44,071 nt of DNA from an archaeon GW2011_AR18. GTDB taxonomy: Archaea; Nanobdellota; Nanobdellia; SCGC-AAA011-G17; GW2011-AR18. The DNA is taken from assembly GCA_000806155.1 (NCBI GenBank), contig JWKX01000003.1, positions 1-44,071 of the forward strand. The letters run 5' to 3'. The notes beneath the pieces are model-generated. The model saw nothing but the letters and a program-made list of their open reading frames with translations, had not been told where the DNA came from and did not search any database. The position numbers and the translations under genes were made by a program. Shown in pieces: positions 23,258-41,154 of this stretch (its first letter is position 1; every line of letters starts with the position of its first letter).

Positions 23258-24607
23258 ATGGAAAGTTTCTTGAAATATGCAGAAAAAAAGGGTTGCAACT
23301 ATGTAGAATTAAAGGAATATTCCGGAAATAAAACAAGCATACAATTAGAGAATGATAAGATAAAAGAATTATCAAAAGGAAATGCATTAATGTATGCAGC
23401 AAGAGTAATGTACAAAAATAAAGAGGGATTAGCTTATTCAAACAAAGAGGATTATAAACAATTAATAGATAATGCAATAAAACTAGCTAATAAAAACAGT
23501 AAAATAATAAAAATAGATGAACTGCCGAAGTTAAAAAAATCAATAAAAACAAAATTTAAGATAAATCCAGAAAATATAGACTTGGAAGATAAGAAAAAAG
23601 ATGTCATGAAATTAGATTTAAGAAAAGATTATAAAAAAATAAATTCATTAAGAGTAAATTATAGTGATAATAACAGAAAACTAAAGATAACAACATCAGA
23701 GGGAAGAGAACTAACATGGAATGATAATGTAGTAGGAATAGTATCAGTAGCATATGCAAAAGATGGAAACAGGTTAGAACAATTCTATAAATCAAAAATA
23801 AAACATCAAGGATATGAATTATTCAAGAAAGAAGCTTCTGGAATAGTAAATAACTCAATGGAAATGGCTGAAAAAATGTTACAATCTAAATTAGCTAAAG
23901 GGGGAAATTATCCAGTAATAATAGACCAGGCATTAGGAGGGGTATTCAGCCATGAAGCAGTAGGACATGGATGCGAGGCAGATAATGTATTACAGGGAGC
24001 AACAGTAATGAATGAAAAAATAGGAAAATTAATAGCAAGCACTTCAGTAAATATAATAGATGATGGAAGTTTAGAGGAAGGATACGGATGGACAGCATTT
24101 GATGATGAAGGAGTAGAGGGGCAGAAAACATATCTGATAAGAAATGGATTCTTAGAGGGGTATTTACATACAAGAGAGACAGCATCATTACTTAAGATGA
24201 AACCAACAGGAAATGGGAGAGCAGAAAGCTTAGGGCATAGAGCAATACCAAGAATGACAAACACATATTTTGATAATGGAGATTCAAATTTCAAAGAAAT
24301 GCTAGAAAAAATAAAAGATGGATATTACTTAAAAGGATCATCAGGAGGACAGGTAAATCCATCATCAGGAGAGTTCTTGTTCAATGCACAATACGGATAC
24401 AGAGTAGAGAATGGAGAATTAAAAGAACTAGTAAAAAATGTATCACTGACAGGGAATATACTAACTACGTTAAAGAATATAAGTTTAGTAGCAAAAGATT
24501 TAGAATTTTCACAGGGAGTATGCGGAAAAGACGGACAGCATGCGCCAGTAGGAGATGGAGCGCCACACATAAAAATAGATAAAGCCAGAGTAGGTGGACA
24601 GGAATGA
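23258..24607 (+). CDS. tldD: TldD-family metalloprotease
   Basis: 449 residues, near the usual family length. The zinc-protease motif is GGVFSHEAVGHGCEADN with HEAVGH at 232-237. Other family marks are YPVIIDQALGG before it, the DDEGVEGQKTYLIRNGFLEGYLHTRETA block (quoted in part: DDEGVEGQKTYLI), GRAESLGHRAIPRMTNTYF, and the C-terminal CGKDGQHAPVGDGAPHIKI. TldD is the catalytic half of the TldD/TldE protease that degrades small, unfolded peptides in the cytosol. The stop overlaps the tldE start (ATGA), keeping subunit synthesis in step. Confidence 0.95.
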   Translation: MESFLKYAEKKGCNYVELKEYSGNKTSIQLENDKIKELSKGNALMYAARVMYKNKEGLAYSNKEDYKQLIDNAIKLANKNSKIIKIDELPKLKKSIKTKFKINPENIDLEDKKKDVMKLDLRKDYKKINSLRVNYSDNNRKLKITTSEGRELTWNDNVVGIVSVAYAKDGNRLEQFYKSKIKHQGYELFKKEASGIVNNSMEMAEKMLQSKLAKGGNYPVIIDQALGGVFSHEAVGHGCEADNVLQGATVMNEKIGKLIASTSVNIIDDGSLEEGYGWTAFDDEGVEGQKTYLIRNGFLEGYLHTRETASLLKMKPTGNGRAESLGHRAIPRMTNTYFDNGDSNFKEMLEKIKDGYYLKGSSGGQVNPSSGEFLFNAQYGYRVENGELKELVKNVSLTGNILTTLKNISLVAKDLEFSQGVCGKDGQHAPVGDGAPHIKIDKARVGGQE

Positions 24608-25908
24608 TAGAAAAAATAGAATCATATATCAAGAAAAAAGGGATAAAAGAGTATGAGATATTCTATGAGAGTTCAGAAAAGACAAGAATGATATTACAAA
24701 GAGATAATATAGATTTCTTAAGCAAAGGATATGTAGATGGAATAGGGATAAGAGTATGCATAGATAAAAAATTAGGATTCAGCAGTACAATAGATATAAA
24801 AAATTATGAAAAATGTGTTGATGAAGCAATAAAAATCTCTAAATTAAACAATAGAGATGAAAAATTTATGAGATTCAATGATGCTAGAATAAAATCAACT
24901 AATAAAATATTTTATGATAAAAAGTTAATAACTAAAGATATAGCATATATGAGTAAATATTTCAAAGATTATATAAAAATAGTAAAAAATACTGATAAAG
25001 ATATAAAACTAAACAGCGGAGGATTTGAGAAATCAACAAGGACAAGAAAAATAATAAATTCAGAAGGAATAAACTTAGAAAGTAAAAGCTGCAATAATAC
25101 ATTCTGGAGCGAGTTGATGAAATCAAAAGAGAATACATTAGGATTCGGAGAGAGAGAAAAAACATTATTAAAACCAGAAAAAGCAAAAGAGCATGTAAAA
25201 AGATTAATTGAATGCGAGAAGAAAAATACTCCAGAAACTACTAATATAAATCTAGTATTACATCCAGAAGCATTATCAGAATTATTAGGGGAGATATTTC
25301 TAGATGCAATAGATGCAGAATCAATACAATCAAAAAAATCAATATTACAGGATAAATTGAACAAGAAAATATTCCATAAAGATATAACAATAATAGATGA
25401 TTCAATAACTAAAAATTTAATATTCTCAAGAGAATTTGATGATGAGGGAGTAAATTCAAGAAAAACATCAATAGTAGAAAAAGGAGTATTGAAGAATTTC
25501 TTATATGATACTTACCATGCAAACATAGACAATGTTAAATCAACATCAAGTGCATCAAGATCATATGCAAGCATACCATCAATAAGTACAACAAATGTAT
25601 TAATGAAGACAGGAAAGAAAACAGAAGAAAAAATACTAAACTCAGCTGATAAATTAATATATGTAAAAAATCTTATAGGGACACATACAGCAGACAGCAC
25701 AACAGGAGATTTCAGTCTAGGAGTCATGGAAGGACATATCTATGAAAAAGGGGAAATGAAATATGCGGTAAAAGATACAATGATTGCTGGAAATTTCTAT
25801 AAAATAATGAATGATATACTGGAGATAGGGAATAAACAGATACATACAGGTGGGGGAACATATTTACCAATAATATTAACAGGAAAAGTAAAATTAATAG
25901 GAAAGTAA
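24604..25908 (+). CDS. tldE: TldE/PmbA-family protease subunit
   Basis: 434 residues, homologous to TldD but lacking HExxxH; the matching region reads LHPEALSELLGEIF. Family marks include FDDEGVNSRKTSIVEKGVL, STSSASRSYASIPSISTTNV, GTHTADSTTGDFSLGVMEGH and GGGTYLPIILTGKVK. It pairs with TldD to close the proteolytic chamber. It is translationally coupled to tldD by a 4-nt overlap. Confidence 0.93.
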   Translation: MIEKIESYIKKKGIKEYEIFYESSEKTRMILQRDNIDFLSKGYVDGIGIRVCIDKKLGFSSTIDIKNYEKCVDEAIKISKLNNRDEKFMRFNDARIKSTNKIFYDKKLITKDIAYMSKYFKDYIKIVKNTDKDIKLNSGGFEKSTRTRKIINSEGINLESKSCNNTFWSELMKSKENTLGFGEREKTLLKPEKAKEHVKRLIECEKKNTPETTNINLVLHPEALSELLGEIFLDAIDAESIQSKKSILQDKLNKKIFHKDITIIDDSITKNLIFSREFDDEGVNSRKTSIVEKGVLKNFLYDTYHANIDNVKSTSSASRSYASIPSISTTNVLMKTGKKTEEKILNSADKLIYVKNLIGTHTADSTTGDFSLGVMEGHIYEKGEMKYAVKDTMIAGNFYKIMNDILEIGNKQIHTGGGTYLPIILTGKVKLIGK

Positions 25909-28577: not shown

Positions 28578-29648
28578 ATGCAGATAAAAGAAGAGGTGCG
28601 TGATATCATCTCAAGTCTAGATATAAGAGATATTGCATTCCTATTAGAGAGTTCTTTAAAAATAACAAAACAAAAAATGGCAAATAATATGGCACAGGAA
28701 GCATTAAACTGCCTAAAAAACTATGACCATTTTACTGATCTAGTATTAGAGTTCTATCTATTACAGAATAAAAATCTAAGGTGTTCTGCAATATCTGGAG
28801 TAGACAATGAGACAAGAAATGTCTATATAGGAAGAAGAGTAATGAAAGGGTCAATAATAGCACAATCATTCATAAACAATAAAATAATATTCCATACAGA
28901 ACCAGAGAATGAACCATCAAGAAGAGGAGAGTTCATAACAATAAACAGAATAAAATCATCATTGATAATACCAATAGAGAGACTTGGAGTAATAACAATA
29001 AACAGGTTTGACAGGAAAAAATTCAATCTTCATCATATAAAATTCATAAATATATTCATAAAAGTGATAAAATCATCATTGGAATTAGCAATAGATAATG
29101 AGAAAAACTTCAATGCAGCAATAAGAGACCAATTAACTGGATTATACAACCACGGATATTTTGCTTTTGAATTAAAAAAATATATAGAAAATGCAAGAAG
29201 AGGAAATTATAGTATCAGTCTAATAATGATAGATGTAGATTATTTCAAGAAATATAATGATAATAATGGACATCCAAAAGGAGATGAATTGTTAATAAAA
29301 CTAGGAAAGATATTAAAAGTGAATACAAGGACAGCAGATATAGTGGCAAGATATGGTGGAGAGGAATTTGCAGTAGTATTACACAATGCAAAATTAAAAG
29401 ATGCAGTAAACAAAGCTGAAATATTAAGAAAAGCAGTAGCAGAACATAAATTCTACAATGAAGAAAGCCAACCAGACAAAGATCTAACAATAAGCTTAGG
29501 AGTTGCAAGCTTTCCAGATAATGCAGAAACTACAGAAGATTTAGTAATAAGAGCTGATAAGGCATTATATTATAGCAAGAATAATGGGAAGAATAAAGTA
29601 ACATCATACAGCAAAATAAATCATAAACTCTCAATAATGTCACAATAA
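28578..29648 (+). CDS. GAF-like plus GGDEF diguanylate cyclase
   Basis: 356 residues, cytosolic. Residues ~35-175 look like a GAF sensor (FTDLVLEFYLLQNKNLRCSA, SSLIIPIERLGVITINRF), joined by a helix to a GGDEF domain: RDQLTGLYNHGYF, SLIMIDVDYFKKYNDNNG (metal Asp 219), inhibitory I-site RTAD (251-254), active loop GGEEF (260-264) and DLTISLGVASFPDNAETTEDL. Catalytic and product-inhibition residues are all present, predicting active c-di-GMP synthesis with feedback control. GGDEF proteins are widespread in bacteria and rare in archaea, so this is a probable transfer. No EAL, HD-GYP or PilZ gene is in the window. The 3' end overlaps the convergent glycosyltransferase by 28 bp. Confidence 0.92.
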   Translation: MQIKEEVRDIISSLDIRDIAFLLESSLKITKQKMANNMAQEALNCLKNYDHFTDLVLEFYLLQNKNLRCSAISGVDNETRNVYIGRRVMKGSIIAQSFINNKIIFHTEPENEPSRRGEFITINRIKSSLIIPIERLGVITINRFDRKKFNLHHIKFINIFIKVIKSSLELAIDNEKNFNAAIRDQLTGLYNHGYFAFELKKYIENARRGNYSISLIMIDVDYFKKYNDNNGHPKGDELLIKLGKILKVNTRTADIVARYGGEEFAVVLHNAKLKDAVNKAEILRKAVAEHKFYNEESQPDKDLTISLGVASFPDNAETTEDLVIRADKALYYSKNNGKNKVTSYSKINHKLSIMSQ

Positions 29649-30819: not shown

Positions 30820-32343
30820 ATGAAAGATGAGACTGATAAAGCATTAAAGGATATAGCAAAAGGTGCAGGATTTGCATTTGCAGGGATAATGATATCCAAA
30901 GTGCTTGGTTATTCATATAGGTTAATAATAGCAAGGCTAGGACCTGAAGATTATGGAATATTATCAATAGCATTAGCAATATTCAATTTTTTAGGAATAA
31001 TAGCAGTATTAGGAATGCCACAAGCAATACAGAGATATGTCTCATTCTATAAAGAGAGAAAACAAGAATCAAAGATATTAGGAATAGTAAGATACTGCTT
31101 AAGATTAACATTCAGTTTCGGTGTTATAATAGCATTAATATTATTTATATTATCAGACTGGATAGCAGTATCAATATTCCATGAACAAAAACTATCATTA
31201 TTAATAAAGATAATTGCAGTGATAATACCATTAGATGGAATAAGAAGCATATTCATAAATTTATGCAAGGCATACAAGTATTTACTGCCTGAAATCTATA
31301 TAAGAAATATAGGAGAAAATTTCATAAAAGTAGTATTTACAATAATATTCTTATCATTAGGTCTTGGATTATTAGGAGCAACATTAGCATATGCAGTTGC
31401 TGTAATATTTACTGTAATATTATCATATATCTTTGTAAAAAAAGTATACAAATTCAGATCAGAAAAACAACCAGAATATGAAAGAAGAGTATGGCTGCAT
31501 TATTCAATACCATTACTGATAAATCATTTCTTATTATTGATATTATTATGGATGGATACATTCATGCTAGGAATATTCAGAAGTTCCGGAGAGGTAGGAA
31601 TATACAATGCAGCATCACCAACAGCACAACTGATCTATGTATTCCCCTTAGCATTACTAAGCTTATTCTTACCTGTTTTAAGCAGTTTATATTCAAAAAA
31701 TGATACAAAAGCATTACATTCATGCTATGCAAGCGTGACAAAATGGATATTTGTAGTAAACTTATATTCACTAATAGTATTAACATACTTTGCAAGAGAG
31801 ATATTGACATTATTATTCGGAAAAATCTATGAGACAGGATTTATTGTCTTAATAATATTAGTATCTGGATACTTTATTTATCATCTAAGCCTTCCAGCAA
31901 ACAATATACTCATGATAATAGAGAAGACTAGATTAGTATTTATAATATCATTAATAGGTGCAACATTAAATATAATATTGAATTATCTATTAATACCAAA
32001 ATATGGAATATTAGGGGCTGGAATTGCAACAGGATTATCAGTATTGATAATGGGAATAATGAATTTCATATTTGTCTATAAAATATTACATTTAAATCCT
32101 ATAAGAAAATCCTATATAAAATCAATAATAGCATGCCTAATAGTCCTAGGATTATTTATGTTATCTAATAAAATAGGAAATAATAATATAATCATGATAA
32201 TAACAATAATATCAGGATTCTTAGTTTATGGATTAATATTATTAGCATTAAAAGTCTTAGATAAAGAAGATTTAATAATATTAAATTACATGGAGAAAGG
32301 GGTATTCAATAAAATAACAAAAATATTAAAGAAACTAATATAA
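30820..32343 (+). CDS. Wzx/RfbX-type polysaccharide flippase
   Basis: 507 residues with about 14 predicted TM helices, for example FAGIMISKVLGYSYRLIIAR at the start, FNFLGIIAVLGMPQAIQRYV, LINHFLLLILLWMDTFMLG and LVIILVSGYFIYHLSLP-like segments. The N-terminal ISKVLGYSYRLIIARLGPEDYG is the hallmark of the MOP-superfamily polysaccharide transporters. It flips lipid-linked oligosaccharides to the outer face of the membrane. Its neighbours (GT4, two methyltransferases) support a role in surface glycan or N-glycan assembly. Confidence 0.9.
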   Translation: MKDETDKALKDIAKGAGFAFAGIMISKVLGYSYRLIIARLGPEDYGILSIALAIFNFLGIIAVLGMPQAIQRYVSFYKERKQESKILGIVRYCLRLTFSFGVIIALILFILSDWIAVSIFHEQKLSLLIKIIAVIIPLDGIRSIFINLCKAYKYLLPEIYIRNIGENFIKVVFTIIFLSLGLGLLGATLAYAVAVIFTVILSYIFVKKVYKFRSEKQPEYERRVWLHYSIPLLINHFLLLILLWMDTFMLGIFRSSGEVGIYNAASPTAQLIYVFPLALLSLFLPVLSSLYSKNDTKALHSCYASVTKWIFVVNLYSLIVLTYFAREILTLLFGKIYETGFIVLIILVSGYFIYHLSLPANNILMIIEKTRLVFIISLIGATLNIILNYLLIPKYGILGAGIATGLSVLIMGIMNFIFVYKILHLNPIRKSYIKSIIACLIVLGLFMLSNKIGNNNIIMIITIISGFLVYGLILLALKVLDKEDLIILNYMEKGVFNKITKILKKLI

Positions 32344-33095: not shown

Positions 33096-33902
33096 ATGTC
33101 AGATAAATTATTACAGAAAGATATGATACATTATGTAAAAAAAATAAACTATATACTAGATAATATAAAAAAATTCCAGAAAGAAATGGGAAAAAAGAAC
33201 TTGAAAGTATTAGATGTAGGGTGCGGAGTAGGAAATATATCATTACAGATAGCAAACATTGGGTGTGATGTCACAGGAATAGATGTTGATAAGAGTTCTG
33301 TAGATTATGCTAATAAAAGAAACAAGATGAAAAACTGCAGATTCAAAGTATATAATGCACATAAAATGAATATGAATGAAAAATTTGATATAATAATATG
33401 CTCAGAAGTATTAGAACATCTAAAATATCCAGAAAACCTTATAGAATTCATAAGCAAGAGCTTGAAAAAAACAGGATTCTTATTCTTATCAGTACCAAAT
33501 GGGTACGGACCAGCAGAACTGAGTGTAATGCCTAGAAGAATAATAGGAAAAATCTTAAAAAGAATTAAATTATATGAAATTTGCAGAAATATAAGACATG
33601 CAATAGTGAGAGATCCTGTAAAAAAAGCACAAAAAAGTTTCGGATTAGACACATTAAACCAATACGGAGAGGGAGCAATGCATGAGCAATTTTTTACATT
33701 AGGTGAATTAAGAAAATTATTTGATAAATATAATCTTGAAATAATAAGAAGACAGAAATCATTTGTATTAGTAGGGACATTCCCATTTTATTATCTATAT
33801 TCAAGATTCAGGACATTGCAGAGCATTGACTGCAGAATAGCTGATGTATTACCTGCATTTACAGTATCTGGATGGAGTTTTATAATAAAATTCAAGAATT
33901 AA
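33096..33902 (+). CDS. Class I SAM-dependent methyltransferase (UbiG-like)
   Basis: 268 residues. Motif I is LKVLDVGCGVGNISLQIA (about 33-50), then CDVTGIDVDKSSVDYANKR, FDIIICSEVLEHLKYPENL and KTGFLFLSVPNGYGPAE. The C-terminal ~110 residues form a cap (RRIIGKILKRIKLYEICR, HEQFFTLGELRKLFDKYNL). HEQFFTLGEL is usual for sugar or lipid O-methyltransferases of surface-glycan clusters. Its 3' end overlaps the convergent radical SAM gene by 4 bp. Confidence 0.82.
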   Translation: MSDKLLQKDMIHYVKKINYILDNIKKFQKEMGKKNLKVLDVGCGVGNISLQIANIGCDVTGIDVDKSSVDYANKRNKMKNCRFKVYNAHKMNMNEKFDIIICSEVLEHLKYPENLIEFISKSLKKTGFLFLSVPNGYGPAELSVMPRRIIGKILKRIKLYEICRNIRHAIVRDPVKKAQKSFGLDTLNQYGEGAMHEQFFTLGELRKLFDKYNLEIIRRQKSFVLVGTFPFYYLYSRFRTLQSIDCRIADVLPAFTVSGWSFIIKFKN

Positions 33903-35431
33903 TAAGTTCTATTCTTCAAGTAATATTTATTCCTTCTAACAGAATAATAAAGAGGGTGAATAACTTTTCTCTCAATATTAGGATTAAGATTGTATAAACC
34001 CTTAGAAGAGTATATCATGCCAAGCATTGCCATATAGATTGCTTTTTCTACAAATTTAGATTTTGTAAAATTCAAGGCATGAACTTTTCTTTTCATAACA
34101 ATATGATCGATAGTCCTCATACCTTTCTTAATCTTCTTAATCATTTCATCAGAGTATTCAAAGAACTTTCCTTTTTCATTAATCAAACCAAGATCATCAA
34201 ATAAAAACTTCTTGAAAATAGGTCTGTGATCAGATTCTCTTACTTCAGTCATGAAATCCTCAGGTCTTAACCACCATTGATCATAATTATATTGAGTCTT
34301 GAACTCTTCATACAAAGTTGTTCCAGGGAAAGGAATCAATAAGCCAGCTCTCTGAATATCTGTAATATAAGGTTCAATATCCTTGATTAATTGTATAGTC
34401 TTCTCAATACTCTCAGGAGTCTCGAAAGGAAAACCAAACATGAAATTAAGAGTCTGGCTGATACCAACATCATGAATCAGCTTAGCTTTCTCTCTTATAA
34501 TATTAGCAGTAAGTTTTTTATGCATCCTCTTTAAAACTTCATCATCGCCAGACTCAACACCCAAACTAATATGGATACAACCAGCTTCTTTCATTTTTAT
34601 TAATAATTCTTCATCCATGAGATCAAATCTTCCATTACACCTCCAGACAATATCTTCACCTTTAAGAGCTTCACATAACTCAATCAACCTCTTCCTATGA
34701 ACATTTATAGTATCATCTACTAAATAGAAATTCCTAGTGCCATATTTTTCTTTAACTTGTCTTATTTCCTTAAGAACATTATCAGCACTCCTAAACCTAT
34801 AACCAGTTTTCTGGCTTGCACAGAAAGAACATTCAAAAGGACAACCTCTACTAGTAATAAGAGTTGACATAACATTCTTAATCTCTTTTTCAGATCTTGC
34901 AAAATCAGATAAATTGAAAGCTTCCCTATCAGGAAGAGGGAGATCATCAAGATTCTGTATAAGAGGACGAGGGGGATTTATAATAATCTCATTATCTTTT
35001 TTATAACTAATACCCTTGACATCCTCAATTTTCATTTTTCCATTAAGATAATCAACAATCTCTGTAATAGTAACTTCAGCTTCACCCATCATACCAATAT
35101 CAACACCACGGCTTAATACTTCATTAGGAAATTTAGTAACATGATAGCCACCACCAATAATAGGAACTTTTAATTCTGATAGTTTTTTTACAAGATCATA
35201 AGCTTTGTAGACATGAGAAGTCATGAAAACAACACCAACAGCATCAGCATTAAATTCCTTGCATAACCTAACAATATCATCATCTGAATACCTAGAATAA
35301 GCAGCAGAAGCATCAATAATCTTTACTTCGATGCCTTTATTCTTAAGAACAGCAGCAATCCAACCAAAACCTAAAGGTATAGACTCGCTGACAAAAGCTG
35401 AATTAGGTTGAATAAGAGCTAATCTTTTCAT
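33899..35431 (-). CDS. B12-binding domain radical SAM enzyme 1
   Basis: 510 residues. The N-terminal ~135 residues are a cobalamin-binding Rossmann fold (LALIQPNSAFVSESIPLGFG, NADAVGVVFMTSHVYKAY, PIIGGGYHVTKFP) without the DxHxxG histidine, as is common in this class. The radical SAM core has C197, C201 and C204 (SRGCPFECSFCAS) binding the 4Fe-4S cluster, then YLVDDTINVHRKR, ISLGVESGDDEVLKRMHK and LNFMFGFPFETPES. Such BchE/HpnR-like enzymes methylate or cyclise unactivated carbons. A methylated lipid or glycan product is inferred from context. TATATAAATA at 35451-35460 is ~24 bp upstream. Confidence 0.92.
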   Translation of the reverse strand: MKRLALIQPNSAFVSESIPLGFGWIAAVLKNKGIEVKIIDASAAYSRYSDDDIVRLCKEFNADAVGVVFMTSHVYKAYDLVKKLSELKVPIIGGGYHVTKFPNEVLSRGVDIGMMGEAEVTITEIVDYLNGKMKIEDVKGISYKKDNEIIINPPRPLIQNLDDLPLPDREAFNLSDFARSEKEIKNVMSTLITSRGCPFECSFCASQKTGYRFRSADNVLKEIRQVKEKYGTRNFYLVDDTINVHRKRLIELCEALKGEDIVWRCNGRFDLMDEELLIKMKEAGCIHISLGVESGDDEVLKRMHKKLTANIIREKAKLIHDVGISQTLNFMFGFPFETPESIEKTIQLIKDIEPYITDIQRAGLLIPFPGTTLYEEFKTQYNYDQWWLRPEDFMTEVRESDHRPIFKKFLFDDLGLINEKGKFFEYSDEMIKKIKKGMRTIDHIVMKRKVHALNFTKSKFVEKAIYMAMLGMIYSSKGLYNLNPNIERKVIHPLYYSVRRNKYYLKNRTY

Positions 35432-35450
35432 ATTTATAAAACTTTTAAGA

Positions 35451-35460
35451 TATTTATATA
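35451..35460 (-). promoter_or_regulatory. TATA box of radical SAM gene 1
   Basis: TATATAAATA on the minus strand is centred ~24 bp from ATG 35431. Confidence 0.5.
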
Positions 35461-35490
35461 TTTAACTAATTAATGAGCTGTAAAGTAAAC

Positions 35491-35564
35491 GTCAGTTTAT
35501 TGTTGTTTGAAAAATTCTAATATCTCATTGGTTAGTCCAGTCAAATAAAACAATAACTAAAGAC
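35491..35564. other. Long imperfect hairpin, candidate structured RNA
   Basis: Outer arms GTC-AGTTTATTGTT (35491-35504) and AACAATAACT-AAA-GAC (35549-35564) pair with one bulge. Inside, TTTGA (35506-35510) pairs with TCAAA (35541-35545) and CTAA (35517-35520) with TTAG (35532-35535), about 22 pairs in 74 nt. It lies between the end of the redox operon and the radical SAM 1 promoter. Confidence 0.35.
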
Positions 35565-35576
35565 AGTCTGCCCATT

Positions 35577-35675
35577 TTACCTTGAAAATATTCCTATTGC
35601 TATTAGTATAGTCACTATTACTGTTGCAATAATCATTATCCATTCACCTATTGATAATTTTGCCTTTTTATCCAT
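35577..35675 (-). CDS. 32-residue single-pass membrane microprotein
   Basis: Reads MDKKAKLSIGEWIMIIAT then VIVTILIAIGIFSR and stop. A short basic cytosolic head leads into one ~20-residue hydrophobic helix. GAGAGG lies 8 nt ahead of the ATG, and the gene begins 29 bp after the ferredoxin stop on the same strand, so it is the third gene of the flavoprotein-ferredoxin operon. It may tether the soluble redox pair to the membrane, as small membrane subunits do in other systems (inference). It is too short for standard gene callers. Confidence rests on the start signals, composition and position. Confidence 0.65.
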   Translation of the reverse strand: MDKKAKLSIGEWIMIIATVIVTILIAIGIFSR

Positions 35676-35704
35676 TTTTTAATCCTCTCAATCTTCATTT
35701 ATCA

Positions 35705-35935
35705 CTAACTTTCTTCCTCAATTTTTGTACCAATAGCATTAACAGGACATGCTTTCTCAGCTTCAACTGCTTTATTAGATAAATCAGATTCAATAGGGAT
35801 AAAATCCTTGTCATGATTAATAACTTTAAGTTCACCATTGATTTCTTTAAACTGCCATTTTTCAGGACAGATAGTAACACAGGCACCACAAGAGATACAT
35901 GTATCATCATTATGTGAAATCTTTAATTTTTTCAT
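35705..35935 (-). CDS. Monocluster 4Fe-4S ferredoxin
   Basis: 76 residues. The cluster motif is DTCISCGACVTICPEKWQF (C..C..C...CP, about 13-24), with the distant EKACPVNAIGTKI near the end, the usual single-cluster archaeal layout (as in Pyrococcus-type ferredoxin, but with Cys instead of Asp at the second ligand position). It carries one electron at low potential. It is downstream of the FNR-like gene (14 bp) and upstream of the microprotein on the same strand. Likely partners are the radical SAM enzymes on both sides. Confidence 0.92.
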   Translation of the reverse strand: MKKLKISHNDDTCISCGACVTICPEKWQFKEINGELKVINHDKDFIPIESDLSNKAVEAEKACPVNAIGTKIEEES

Positions 35936-35949
35936 AAGATAATATTAAT

Positions 35950-36651
35950 CTAATTCTTTATATCTTTTTCTAAGACATCATTCTGCAATATATTTTTTTC
36001 AGGAACACCAATATTCAATAAATAATTATTAACTGAAGAAATCATCTCTTTAGGGCCGCATATACAGAATATACTATCTTTATCTTTTATAACTTCTTTA
36101 AGATAAGATTCATCAATCCTTTTTCTATAACCATTCCATAAATTATCTGCTGTCACAATATAATTATTTTTTAATTTACCAATACTAAAAGCAAAATTAT
36201 CCAATTCAACCTTGAAAGCAAGATCATCCATTTTTTTTACAGAATAAATAAGATTAAGTTCAACATCAGCACGATTCTGCATAATCTGTCTTATCAAAGA
36301 AATGAATTTAGAGATACCAATACCTCCAGCAATCAATGTAAAAGACTTAACATTATTATAATTCAGAGGCAAACCATAAGGACCTGAGATTGTAATATCA
36401 TCACCCTCTTTAAGGTTATTAAACAGGTACTCAGAAAGTTTATCATCTGGAGAGGATTTAAGCATAATCTCAAAAAGAGTGGCAGCTTCAGGTGGTGTTG
36501 TAACATAAAAATATTTAATATCATCATTAATATGAAGAGCAATAGCCTGACCTGGAATAAAAACTAACTTCCCATAAGGAATCATCCTGATAAGCCTAAT
36601 ATTCTTTGATACAAATTCAGTCTCAAGAATAGAAGCAGCAACCTTTTCCAT
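35950..36651 (-). CDS. FNR-like flavoprotein oxidoreductase (FAD/NAD(P)H binding)
   Basis: 233 residues. The FAD domain has KLVFIPGQAIALHIN and SGPYGLPLNYNN. The NAD(P)H domain has SFTLIAGGIGISKFISLIRQI, VELNLIYSVKKMDDLAF and a C-terminal SIFCICGPKEMISSVNNYL (the CGP motif). It belongs to the ferredoxin-NADP reductase superfamily, PyrK/SudB-like size, but lacks the Cys-rich 2Fe-2S tail of PyrK. It probably passes electrons between NAD(P)H and the adjacent ferredoxin. It heads a three-gene operon with ferredoxin and the membrane microprotein, divergent from radical SAM gene 2. Confidence 0.87.
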   Translation of the reverse strand: MEKVAASILETEFVSKNIRLIRMIPYGKLVFIPGQAIALHINDDIKYFYVTTPPEAATLFEIMLKSSPDDKLSEYLFNNLKEGDDITISGPYGLPLNYNNVKSFTLIAGGIGISKFISLIRQIMQNRADVELNLIYSVKKMDDLAFKVELDNFAFSIGKLKNNYIVTADNLWNGYRKRIDESYLKEVIKDKDSIFCICGPKEMISSVNNYLLNIGVPEKNILQNDVLEKDIKN

Positions 36652-36733
36652 AAAAAATTACAAAATCCAATGCTTAAAAAGATTACTATACTAAAATAAT
36701 CAGAATATACAAAAATATTATTTTCAATCGTTA

Positions 36734-36744
36734 ACTTTAAATAG
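36734..36744 (+). promoter_or_regulatory. TATA box of radical SAM gene 2
   Basis: ACTTTAAATAG is centred 27 bp before ATG 36766, which gives a leaderless start. Confidence 0.55.
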
Positions 36745-36765
36745 AAATTAGATTAATGTAATATA

Positions 36766-38346
36766 ATGAGCAAACCAATAGCACTAGTACAAATAAGCAG
36801 TCCGCAAGATATGAGAATAGCTCCATTAGCACACTTATTTGTAGGTGGTGCATTAAAAAGAGCAGGATATGAACCAAAAGTATTCCATATAAATTCTGAA
36901 AATTTAAACAGAGCAGTAAAAGATATACTAAGCATAGATCCAATGTTTGTAGGAATATCAGTAATAACAGGAAACCAGACAAGAGATAGTGCTAACCTAT
37001 CAAGAATGCTGAAAAAAGAGAAACCTGAACTACAAATAGTATGGGGAGGAGTGCATCCATCATTATTACCAAAAGAGACAGTAAAAGAGGAATATATAGA
37101 CTATGTAGTAAATGGAGAGGGAGACAGCATAATAATAGATATAGCAAGAATGTTTGAGGGAAAAGGAAGAGCAGAGGATATATTAGGATTATGTTATAAA
37201 AGAAATGGGATACCAATATTAAATGGACCAAGACCATTAATAGAGGATTTAGATCAACTGGATTTGGATTTTGATTTAATAGATGTAGAGTCACACTTAG
37301 AACATGAGTGGAACAATAAAAGAGTATTAGGATTCATAACAAGCAGAGGATGCCCATTCAACTGTGGATTCTGCTTCAATCAAAGATTCAACCAGAGAAG
37401 ATGGAGAGCACAGTCAGACAAAAAAGTAATAGAAAAAGTAACATACCTAAAAGATAAATATGGAATAGATGGGATAAAATTCTATGATGACCTATTATTT
37501 TCTAACCCACAAAGAGCAATAAGATTACTAGAAGCAATAAACCTGCCATGGTATGGAGAGGTAAGAGTAGGAATGTTACATGATGATATGGTAAAAAAAC
37601 TAGTATCAACACAGTGCAGAGAATTATTATTAGGCTTAGAATCAGGATCAGACAGGATGCTAAAATTAATGAACAAACTACAGACAGTAGAACAGATAAA
37701 AAGAGGGATAAAAGCATTAACAAAAGCACCAGACCTAAAACCAGTGGGATCATTCATAATGGGAATGCCGACAGAGAGCAAAGAAGAGACATTCCAGACA
37801 GTAGACTTAGCATTAGAACTAAGCGAGATACATCCAAGAATGAGATTCAGTTTCGGATTTTATTTGCCATACCCAGGAGCTGACTTGTATGACTTAGCAT
37901 TGAAGATGGGATTTACACCACCAACAAAAACAGAGGATTGGGACAGTTTAGATAGATGGGCAAACAAATTAGAACTAAAATGGTTAGACTGGACACATGA
38001 TTCAGAATATTTCAGAAAGATAAGAGACTACTTCAATCTATTACCATTAAGGGATGTGAAATTCCCGATAATCTCAAAAATACCTGAAAAAAGATTAAGA
38101 GAGAGAGATTTTACCCATACAAAAGAGTTAGAGATACTAAGCAATTTACAAAAAAAATATTCACACAAAAACAATATGTTCAGCAAAATGGTATTAAAAT
38201 CACTGCCATATATAAGATCAAAAAGACTGCCAAAAAATGTAGAGATAAACCAGATACCAGTAATAAACAATAATGTAAATAGTGTGCCTATAGTCAGTCA
38301 ACAAAAAGAGCAGGCAATATCAGGGATAGAAATAAAGAGCAATTAG
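36766..38346 (+). CDS. B12-binding domain radical SAM enzyme 2
   Basis: 526 residues. The cobalamin domain (~1-135) shows HLFVGGALKRAGYEPKVFHI, FVGISVITGNQTRDSANLSR and IVWGGVHPSLLPKET. The radical SAM cluster is SRGCPFNCGFCFNQRFNQ with C196, C200 and C203, followed by IKFYDDLLFSNPQRAIRLLE, LLGLESGSDRMLKLMNK and GSFIMGMPTESKEETFQT. A ~120-residue C-terminal extension has YPGADLYDLALKMGF and then a basic, low-complexity tail. It is related to but clearly distinct from radical SAM 1 and has a different promoter. A C-methylation or ring-closure role on a lipid or glycan is inferred. Confidence 0.92.
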   Translation: MSKPIALVQISSPQDMRIAPLAHLFVGGALKRAGYEPKVFHINSENLNRAVKDILSIDPMFVGISVITGNQTRDSANLSRMLKKEKPELQIVWGGVHPSLLPKETVKEEYIDYVVNGEGDSIIIDIARMFEGKGRAEDILGLCYKRNGIPILNGPRPLIEDLDQLDLDFDLIDVESHLEHEWNNKRVLGFITSRGCPFNCGFCFNQRFNQRRWRAQSDKKVIEKVTYLKDKYGIDGIKFYDDLLFSNPQRAIRLLEAINLPWYGEVRVGMLHDDMVKKLVSTQCRELLLGLESGSDRMLKLMNKLQTVEQIKRGIKALTKAPDLKPVGSFIMGMPTESKEETFQTVDLALELSEIHPRMRFSFGFYLPYPGADLYDLALKMGFTPPTKTEDWDSLDRWANKLELKWLDWTHDSEYFRKIRDYFNLLPLRDVKFPIISKIPEKRLRERDFTHTKELEILSNLQKKYSHKNNMFSKMVLKSLPYIRSKRLPKNVEINQIPVINNNVNSVPIVSQQKEQAISGIEIKSN

Positions 38347-38764: not shown

Positions 38765-38857
38765 ATGCAAAATTATTTATCACGATTAAAATATAATATT
38801 ATTCAATTATCGATTGACGAATTTGAACAAAATAGGAGACAGTGTCTCACAAATTAG
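38765..38857 (+). CDS. Possible 30-residue leader ORF before the glycosyltransferase
   Basis: Reads MQNYLSRLKYNIIQLSIDEF then EQNRRQCLTN and stop. It starts at the predicted transcription start and ends 16 bp before the glycosyltransferase ATG. It could be a translated leader that controls entry to the next gene, or a small protein with an amphipathic helix. Support is positional only. Confidence 0.35.
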   Translation: MQNYLSRLKYNIIQLSIDEFEQNRRQCLTN

Positions 38858-38873
38858 GATTTATTATATTACT

Positions 38874-39860
38874 ATGAAAACAATATTCCTGAATAATTAT
38901 CCACATCCAGCACATGGATTATGGGCAGATTCAATAAATGCACAATATATAGATGACAGGGTAGCTGAATATAAATTAAAAAATTTTTCAAGAATACAAA
39001 AATCATTAGAAACAATAAAAAAAATACCAAAAGATGCTGAATTTGTATTATGCGAGAGTGCTTCACAACTAATAACAGGAGTAATATGGAAGACTTTTCA
39101 CAAGAAGAAAAAATTAGGATTGATAGTATCAGACCCAAAATATTATCACATGTGGAAAATGCTATCATTCAAGAAAAAACTTTATTTAATGATGCTGAAA
39201 AAAGTGGATATATTCATATGCAGTTCACAATTAATGAAAGATTATTTGCCAAAAGAGAGTCACGATAGAGCATATGTAGTACCACCAGCATTCAACAGAG
39301 AAAAATTTGAAAAAATAAAGTGCAACATAAATAATAAAAATATAATATTTACTGCAAGAATATGTTTAGAAAAAGGTGTAGATCATCTAGTGAATGTATT
39401 CTTAAAAGTAAAAAAACAATATAAGGAGTCTAGATTATATTTATTAGGAGCAAGTTCATACATACCAGGACAGGGAGATCTAAGAGAACAATTAGAGAAT
39501 AAAAAAATAAAAGATATAATATTTACAGGACATGTAGATACAAGACCATATTTAAAGAAATGTTCATTATATGTAAATCTATCATGGATAGAACCAGCAT
39601 CAGTATCAGTATTACAGGCAATGAGCACAGGAATAGTACCAATAGTAAACCAAAATGTAGGAAACAAGAGCTATGTTGCAATGATAAACAAAGAATTAGT
39701 AGTCAATAATGATGAAGAGGCAGAAAATATGATATTAAAACTATGGAAAAATAAGAAATTATTAGAGAAATATTCTAAGAAAGCAATAGAAGCAAGCAAA
39801 TTATATCCTGATGAGAGAGAGAGCATAAGATTATTCAAAAAGGCAATAGAAAAATTATAA
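38874..39860 (+). CDS. GT4-family glycosyltransferase 2
   Basis: 328 residues from ATG 38874 (MKTIFLNNYPHPAHGLWADS); a TTG at 38814 gives a longer but unsupported N-terminus. The GT-B fold is seen in NNKNIIFTARICLEKGVDHLV, SRLYLLGASSYIPGQGD, the binding-site segment KCSLYVNLSWIEPASVSVLQ and MSTGIVPIVNQNVGN. The usual second acidic residue is in the EPASVSVLQAMSTG helix. It probably adds a sugar to the same surface glycan built by the cluster from 29.6 kb on. Confidence 0.85.
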   Translation: MKTIFLNNYPHPAHGLWADSINAQYIDDRVAEYKLKNFSRIQKSLETIKKIPKDAEFVLCESASQLITGVIWKTFHKKKKLGLIVSDPKYYHMWKMLSFKKKLYLMMLKKVDIFICSSQLMKDYLPKESHDRAYVVPPAFNREKFEKIKCNINNKNIIFTARICLEKGVDHLVNVFLKVKKQYKESRLYLLGASSYIPGQGDLREQLENKKIKDIIFTGHVDTRPYLKKCSLYVNLSWIEPASVSVLQAMSTGIVPIVNQNVGNKSYVAMINKELVVNNDEEAENMILKLWKNKKLLEKYSKKAIEASKLYPDERESIRLFKKAIEKL

Positions 39861-39870
39861 AAATAAAAAA

Positions 39871-41154
39871 TTAGATAGAACTTCTCTTAGAACCAAGACC
39901 CACATGTCCTGAACGAGCAGCCACCATTCTACCAAAAGATGTATACTTAGCAACAGCTGAAGGAAGAACAATATTTGATGATAATCTACCTTCAATCCTG
40001 TAACTAATAATCTTTTCTTCCCCTCTCTTAATGTTATGAACATCCCAGACCATAACAGAACCATCAGGAACTGCCTTAATATGGTTAGGTCTCATGCTGA
40101 CAAACTGAGCAGGAGCTTTAATAGTATTAGGAACTCTATCAATTATCCTAACGTTATTAACAGCCATATTACCTCTATTCTTAATGTTAATAACAACTTT
40201 CATAACATGAACACTTCCACCTTGAGGGGCATGCATTCCTAAAACTTTCTTGCTAATAACAATAGAGTTCTTCATCCTGAAAACATAGACAAGAGCAACT
40301 GCTAATATTATAAGTATAAGAATAAAAGTAGGCCATCTGTAATTAACTTTATAACCAATAATCTTGCTCTCACCAGGCTGTAAATTATAATTCCAGTAGA
40401 TACGATATATACCATCAACTTTATCAATCTTGGATACTTCAGGATTAAAGCTAGAAAGCTTATATGCAATATAATCAAAATCCTTAGTATAAGCCTGGTT
40501 GACAATATTATTACCATTATTCCTTAAAGTAACAGTCTCACCACTAACTAAGAAAGAACTATCATCTTCAATCAATTCTTTAACATCAGAATATTCACCA
40601 ACAGTATAAGTAAAAGGTTTATCTAACATCAGATTATCATTAAGAGAAATTTTAATGTTCATTTGATAATCATCTTTATGAATATTATCAGGAATCCTAA
40701 TAGGGAATTCAATCTCTCTCTCTTCCATCTTAGCAAGACTTAATTTCTGAGATAAATCAAAGTGAGGACTCTTAACCACTAAATCCATATTATCAAGAGC
40801 AACATTACGTATGTTTTTTACTTTTAATCTAGCAAGAGTAGTTCTTTTAGGATCAATAACAGGAAGAGAGCTGAAATCTGCTGTTATGACTTTCTTATAA
40901 TCTAAAACTTTAGCAATAATCAATCTCTCAATCCTTGTAGCACTATTCACGAAAACACCTAATTTAATACCATAAGAACCAGGAGGAATAGTTACTGAAG
41001 CAGAGTTTTCTTCATTATTATTAAGATGCAGAAGGTAAGAAACACTATCACCAGGAAGTGCTTCATTCTGTATAGGCTCATATTCAGCCTGTAAAGCGGA
41101 AACTGCGGCTAGACTCAATAGAAATATTACTAAAAATATTAGACCTCTTTTCAT
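39871..41154 (-). CDS. Secreted beta-sandwich protein with internal membrane helix
   Basis: 427 residues. A signal peptide (GLIFLVIFLLSLAAVSA) is followed by extracellular Ig/NEW3-like domains (~25-270; SVSYLLHLNNNEENSASVTI, ARLKVKNIRNVALDNMDLVV). A TM helix (FILILIILAVALVYVF, about 277-292) then leads to a C-terminal DUF11-like domain: VVINIKNRGNMAVNNVRIID, RVPNTIKAPAQFV, WDVHNIKRGEEKIISYRIEG. If the TM is single, the C-terminal domain is cytosolic, which is odd for a DUF11-type fold. It resembles the architecture of the ABC-operon protein at 13714. It is convergent with the glycosyltransferase, 10 bp apart. Confidence 0.75.
   Translation of the reverse strand: MKRGLIFLVIFLLSLAAVSALQAEYEPIQNEALPGDSVSYLLHLNNNEENSASVTIPPGSYGIKLGVFVNSATRIERLIIAKVLDYKKVITADFSSLPVIDPKRTTLARLKVKNIRNVALDNMDLVVKSPHFDLSQKLSLAKMEEREIEFPIRIPDNIHKDDYQMNIKISLNDNLMLDKPFTYTVGEYSDVKELIEDDSSFLVSGETVTLRNNGNNIVNQAYTKDFDYIAYKLSSFNPEVSKIDKVDGIYRIYWNYNLQPGESKIIGYKVNYRWPTFILILIILAVALVYVFRMKNSIVISKKVLGMHAPQGGSVHVMKVVINIKNRGNMAVNNVRIIDRVPNTIKAPAQFVSMRPNHIKAVPDGSVMVWDVHNIKRGEEKIISYRIEGRLSSNIVLPSAVAKYTSFGRMVAARSGHVGLGSKRSSI

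Follow-up and report, generated by a model that had tools for sequence, protein, structure and literature searches.

A flavoprotein-ferredoxin gene pair between two B12-type radical SAM genes of an archaeal surface-glycan island: candidate for a general, not a dedicated, electron supply

We analyzed a 44,071-nucleotide stretch of the archaeon GW2011_AR18 (contig JWKX01000003.1, positions 1 to 44,071; hereafter the window), which is contig 3 of a 17-contig, 822-kb draft genome of ~90% completeness. The host is a Woesearchaeota-like archaeon whose nearest named relative found, G058, is a Candidatus Woesearchaeota metagenome-assembled genome of the same order. Between positions 33899 and 38346, the window carries a B12-binding radical SAM gene (rSAM1, minus strand), a 32-codon open reading frame (ORF, minus), a ferredoxin gene (minus), an FNR-family flavoprotein gene (minus) and a second, divergent B12-binding radical SAM gene (rSAM2, plus). 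We find that rSAM1 forms a conserved unit with a methyltransferase gene and rSAM2 with a family 4 glycosyltransferase (GT4) gene, both without redox genes, and that dedication of the FNR-ferredoxin pair to rSAM1 and rSAM2 is not supported. The locus is a surface-glycan island in which known kinds of protein are assembled, and the reading we favor, to which we give about an even chance, is that FNR and then ferredoxin form a general electron-supply operon that lies between two glycan-associated B12-rSAM enzymes. This reading is supported by FNR-ferredoxin pairs that occur without an rSAM gene, by both sets of rSAM orthologs that occur without the pair, and by a proximity between FNR and B12-rSAM genes that is at background level.

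The ortholog of rSAM1 (33899..35431, minus strand; 510 aa) at locus L112 of G058 is 70% identical. The S-adenosylmethionine (SAM)-dependent methyltransferase that converges with rSAM1 in the window (33096..33902, plus strand; Methyltransf_23 3e-22) has a 67% counterpart beside that ortholog, equally convergent and with the same 4-bp overlap of the gene tails. No ferredoxin, FNR or rSAM2 is found beside this rSAM1 ortholog (1/1). Similarly, rSAM2 (36766..38346, plus strand; 526 aa) has orthologs in G058 and G063 (57% and 54% identical), and homologues of the window GT4 (38814..39860, plus strand; Glyco_trans_1_4 2e-16) lie just upstream of each of them (47% in G058, 40% in G063), while the 14-16 kb around each ortholog (2/2) contain no FNR or ferredoxin match. 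These glycan-linked B12-rSAM genes thus keep fixed partners, a useful result in itself. The earlier note on this DNA had proposed a dedicated, self-contained redox module, a proposal that fails this linkage test. Because relatives keep each rSAM gene with another neighbor and without electron carriers, a general electron supply is likelier than a dedicated module.

In a wider sample, too, FNR and B12-rSAM genes are not linked above background. Across ~46 non-redundant loci with an FNR homologue, a B12-rSAM gene lies within 6 kb of FNR at 6 loci against 6.5 expected, and within 1 kb at 3 against 2.0 expected; the expectation assumes random placement of ~10.8 rSAM candidates per Mb and is a rough background, as real rSAM genes are clustered and the candidates from the first look include unconfirmed ones. 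Ferredoxin stands beside FNR without an rSAM gene in G067 and G068, and the two are 1.5 kb apart in G223, where a 25% homologue of the secreted protein encoded at 39871-41154 of the window lies between them, a hint from one genome only that the pair and this protein are linked. The closest FNR, in G009, falls in a glycan cluster directly after a nitroreductase-methyltransferase fusion and 4.5 kb from a B12-rSAM gene, with no ferredoxin detected at that locus. Contig 4 of the window genome has a matching family 2 glycosyltransferase (GT2), nitroreductase fusion, methyltransferase and B12-rSAM gene, and no FNR in the stretch read. We also note that loci L082 (6801-12228) and L060 (3349-10865) share the GT2 (59%), the nitroreductase-methyltransferase fusion (56%) and the methyltransferase (57%). 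An LPG_synthase_TM protein also belongs to this shared glycan cluster, as does a B12-rSAM gene, and in L060 FNR follows the fusion directly.

A different FNR/B12-rSAM cluster is conserved in other Woesearchaeota. FNR and B12-rSAM genes lie side by side in G011, G012 and G017, which belong to one family, and in G342 (in order of locus number, L065:2082-6545, L091:150-4565, L097:7668-10280 and L154:6977-10098, from four Woesearchaeota-related genomes). A ferredoxin gene is near the cluster in G012, G017 and G342, and the part of the G011 locus that was read showed none. The four cluster FNRs form one clade (100/97), as do the cluster rSAMs (100/97; three placeable proteins, from G011, G012 and G342), and the window FNR and rSAMs fall outside both clades. 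The window resembles this cluster in having FNR next to B12-rSAM with ferredoxin close by, as in three of the four genomes, but differs in that neither the FNR (25% identical to that of G012) nor the rSAMs (24-29%) are orthologous. Moreover, unlike the window ferredoxin, that of G012 is fused to PterinBD-DUF4346 (Pfam), and that of G017 shares its long C-terminal extension. Since an FNR/B12-rSAM module can be conserved elsewhere, its lack of conservation at the window locus is more telling, and the cluster of these other Woesearchaeota is a better place to ask about electron donors. A gene for an Fe-S biosynthesis-type protein (PF01521 + DUF1858) lies close by at L065, the locus of a ferredoxin-PterinBD-DUF4346 fusion.

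The flavoprotein, the ferredoxin and two different B12 radical SAM genes are all present where the earlier note placed them. rSAM1 and rSAM2 are a mere 29% identical to each other, and both have an N-terminal B12-binding domain (PF02310; 1e-19 and 5e-15) followed by a radical SAM domain (PF04055; 9e-30 and 9e-21), above the Pfam thresholds, with an intact CxxxCxxC cluster-binding motif (CPFECSFC and CPFNCGFC, respectively). These domains and motifs assign both proteins to the cobalamin-dependent (class B) radical SAM superfamily, and cobalamin binding is predicted from their sequences, although relatives of the AprD4 kind may have a B12-type domain without binding cobalamin. The best named NCBIfam matches are ApyD (1e-53) and HpnJ (2e-51) for rSAM1, and BchE (4e-41) and HpnJ (2e-40) for rSAM2. 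BchE, HpnJ and ApyD (TIGR02026, TIGR03471, NF050148) share the B12-binding and radical SAM domains across the same span, but rSAM1 and rSAM2 score far below all the curated equivalog cut-offs, these and others (e.g. 182 vs 750 bits), so no BchE-, HpnJ- or ApyD-type function is implied. A structure model of rSAM1, built from three sequences and reliable over residues ~1-360 only, matches the OxsB/TsrM/AprD4/MgmA fold.

The FNR gene (35950..36651, minus strand; 233 aa) ends 14 bp from the ferredoxin gene. Both FAD_binding_6 (1e-6) and NAD_binding_1 (2e-15) exceed the gathering score, which places the protein in the FNR superfamily, and it retains the CGP and GPxG motifs. The RxYS/T flavin-binding motif is absent from it: KYFY replaces RxYS, whose serine is present in 34/34 aligned relatives, and GISK replaces GIxP. 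The window FNR has no close relative in the family, order or phylum sets (best match 33%), there being no FNR ortholog among the 10 genomes of the family-level set, and it sits on a terminal branch of 1.68 against a median of 0.29. Its AlphaFold model was poor (pLDDT 43) and is not used here. The ferredoxin (35705..35935, minus strand; 76 aa; Fer4_13 6e-11) has CxxCxxC plus a remote CP cysteine (C13, C16, C19 and C63), the Fer4_13 pattern for a single [4Fe-4S] cluster, and aligns with Pyrococcus/Thermotoga-type single-cluster ferredoxins of known structure. Similar ferredoxins occur in 102 of 371 phylum genomes and are too generic for tracing the pair.

The earlier note had further described FNR, ferredoxin and a membrane microprotein as one operon flanked by the two radical SAM genes. 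FNR and ferredoxin are tightly spaced and the small ORF may belong with them, whereas rSAM1 and rSAM2 appear to have promoters of their own. Downstream, after a gap of 145 bp, comes the start of rSAM1, preceded by a TATA-like box that has the usual leaderless spacing (top 2% of random sites); the divergent rSAM2 lies behind another (top 3% of random sites). These scores are weak statistics, and the operon is probably limited to FNR-ferredoxin(-ORF). The microprotein is weakly supported as a real gene: the 32-codon ORF (35577..35675, minus strand) would encode a single transmembrane segment and has GAGG ahead of its ATG, but no convincing homologue was found across 1.26 Mb of compared loci, and shuffling the 273 bp in question yields an equally hydrophobic ORF in 2.9% of cases.

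In the general electron-supply reading, NADH or NADPH would reduce the flavoprotein, which would in turn reduce the ferredoxin. The ferredoxin would then pass electrons one at a time to the cell's iron-sulfur enzymes, among them rSAM1, rSAM2 and the other B12-rSAM proteins of the genome; at least 5 B12-rSAM-type genes are found in it (G000; contigs C3, C4, C7 and C9). In the rSAM enzymes SAM cleavage requires a reduced [4Fe-4S] cluster, and these enzymes would probably modify a carbon of a sugar that is linked to a nucleotide or a lipid, by C-methylation, deoxygenation or similar, before the sugar is flipped and exported. That B12-rSAM enzymes need a low-potential donor, as the earlier note assumed, is biochemically sound (PMC13142503, PMC8896826). 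A reconstituted chain from NADPH through a ferredoxin reductase to ferredoxin supports BchE turnover in vitro (PMC13142503). This chain resembles the window in combining an FNR-type reductase and a ferredoxin with a B12-rSAM of the same broad subfamily, but it uses an [Fe7S8] ferredoxin from another locus, whereas the window ferredoxin is single-cluster and a putative electron donor. Should the pair power the rSAMs, a physiological electron donor to B12-rSAM enzymes would be identified in DPANN archaea; the few papers that we found name no such donor, and our literature search for B12-rSAM in DPANN glycan loci found nothing.

Several points weigh against this reading. Electron transfer from the ferredoxin to the rSAM proteins is something we infer by analogy. 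TsrM was activated by one specific double-cluster ferredoxin, two single-cluster ones being too high in potential (PMC8896826), which calls for caution, the window ferredoxin being single-cluster. Caution also attaches to the FNR sequence, in which the RxYS serine is missing. The pair has no close relative and its own history is untraceable among the compared genomes, and the glycan substrate is suggested by neighboring genes alone.

A rather less probable explanation is that FNR and ferredoxin serve other enzymes, such as geranylgeranyl reductase (GGR) or fermentative redox enzymes, and came to lie between the rSAM genes by chance as glycan genes were inserted around them. The occurrence of rSAM1 and rSAM2 orthologs without the pair, the background-level proximity and the FNR-ferredoxin pairs in unrelated contexts all fit this explanation, as does archaeal GGR, which uses a ferredoxin donor encoded at its own locus (PMC10821996). 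However, no other ferredoxin-dependent enzyme adjoins the pair in the window while two candidate consumers flank it directly, and the nearest FNR, that of G009, is likewise in a glycan cluster with a B12-rSAM gene 4.5 kb away. The view of the earlier note, that FNR and ferredoxin act as a donor dedicated to the flanking B12-rSAMs, perhaps recruited in this lineage only, draws on the same direct flanking on both sides and on the analogous conserved cluster of G011, G012, G017 and G342, most with ferredoxin. The lack of a close relative of the window FNR limits the linkage test, so that recruitment in a single lineage is possible. We nevertheless hold this view to be improbable, given rSAM1 and rSAM2 orthologs without the pair, the non-orthology of the window FNR and rSAMs to the conserved cluster and, more weakly, the apparent promoters of rSAM1 and rSAM2.

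The KYFY and GISK replacements and the long branch put the flavin function of the window FNR in doubt and raise another explanation, in which the protein has lost the ordinary role of an NAD(P)H-ferredoxin reductase and has another job or is decaying. This is quite unlikely in our estimate, as the ORF is intact, CGP, GPxG and the tight spacing with ferredoxin are kept, and K and F occur at two of the RxYS-motif positions in other family members. We give equally little credence to the most far-reaching combination, in which an NAD(P)H-FNR-ferredoxin system, self-contained, specific to this lineage and altered at its flavin site, would power two B12-rSAMs that act on an archaeal surface-glycan precursor by C-methylation or deoxygenation.

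Of the substrates suggested in the earlier note, a surface glycan agrees with the setting, in which a methyltransferase is the conserved partner of rSAM1 and GT4 that of rSAM2, and a polysaccharide flippase gene (30820..32343, plus strand; MATE/MOP type; Polysacc_synt 4e-31 in Pfam) is near. Indeed, a 44% homologue of this flippase lies close to the rSAM2 ortholog in G058. A lipid substrate, unlike a glycan, finds no support here. GrsA-like lipid cyclisation was considered and rejected, there being no lipid gene beside the rSAM genes, whose conserved partners are the methyltransferase and GT4. The note had also pointed to cobalamin uptake or salvage genes, and in this ~90% complete genome neither a FecCD/BtuC-type importer nor CobS was found, in searches that included positive controls. 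This is in line with the report that Woesearchaeota rarely have complete cobalamin pathways (PMC8421398).

Two other features of the window are worth recording. Two TldD/PmbA-type metallopeptidase genes lie side by side at 23258-25908 (plus strand). The gene at 28578-29648 (plus strand), on this contig of a DPANN-like archaeal genome, encodes a protein of the GGDEF (diguanylate cyclase) type whose RYGGEEF motif is intact (PF00990 2e-47); cyclic di-GMP signaling is usually taken as bacterial.

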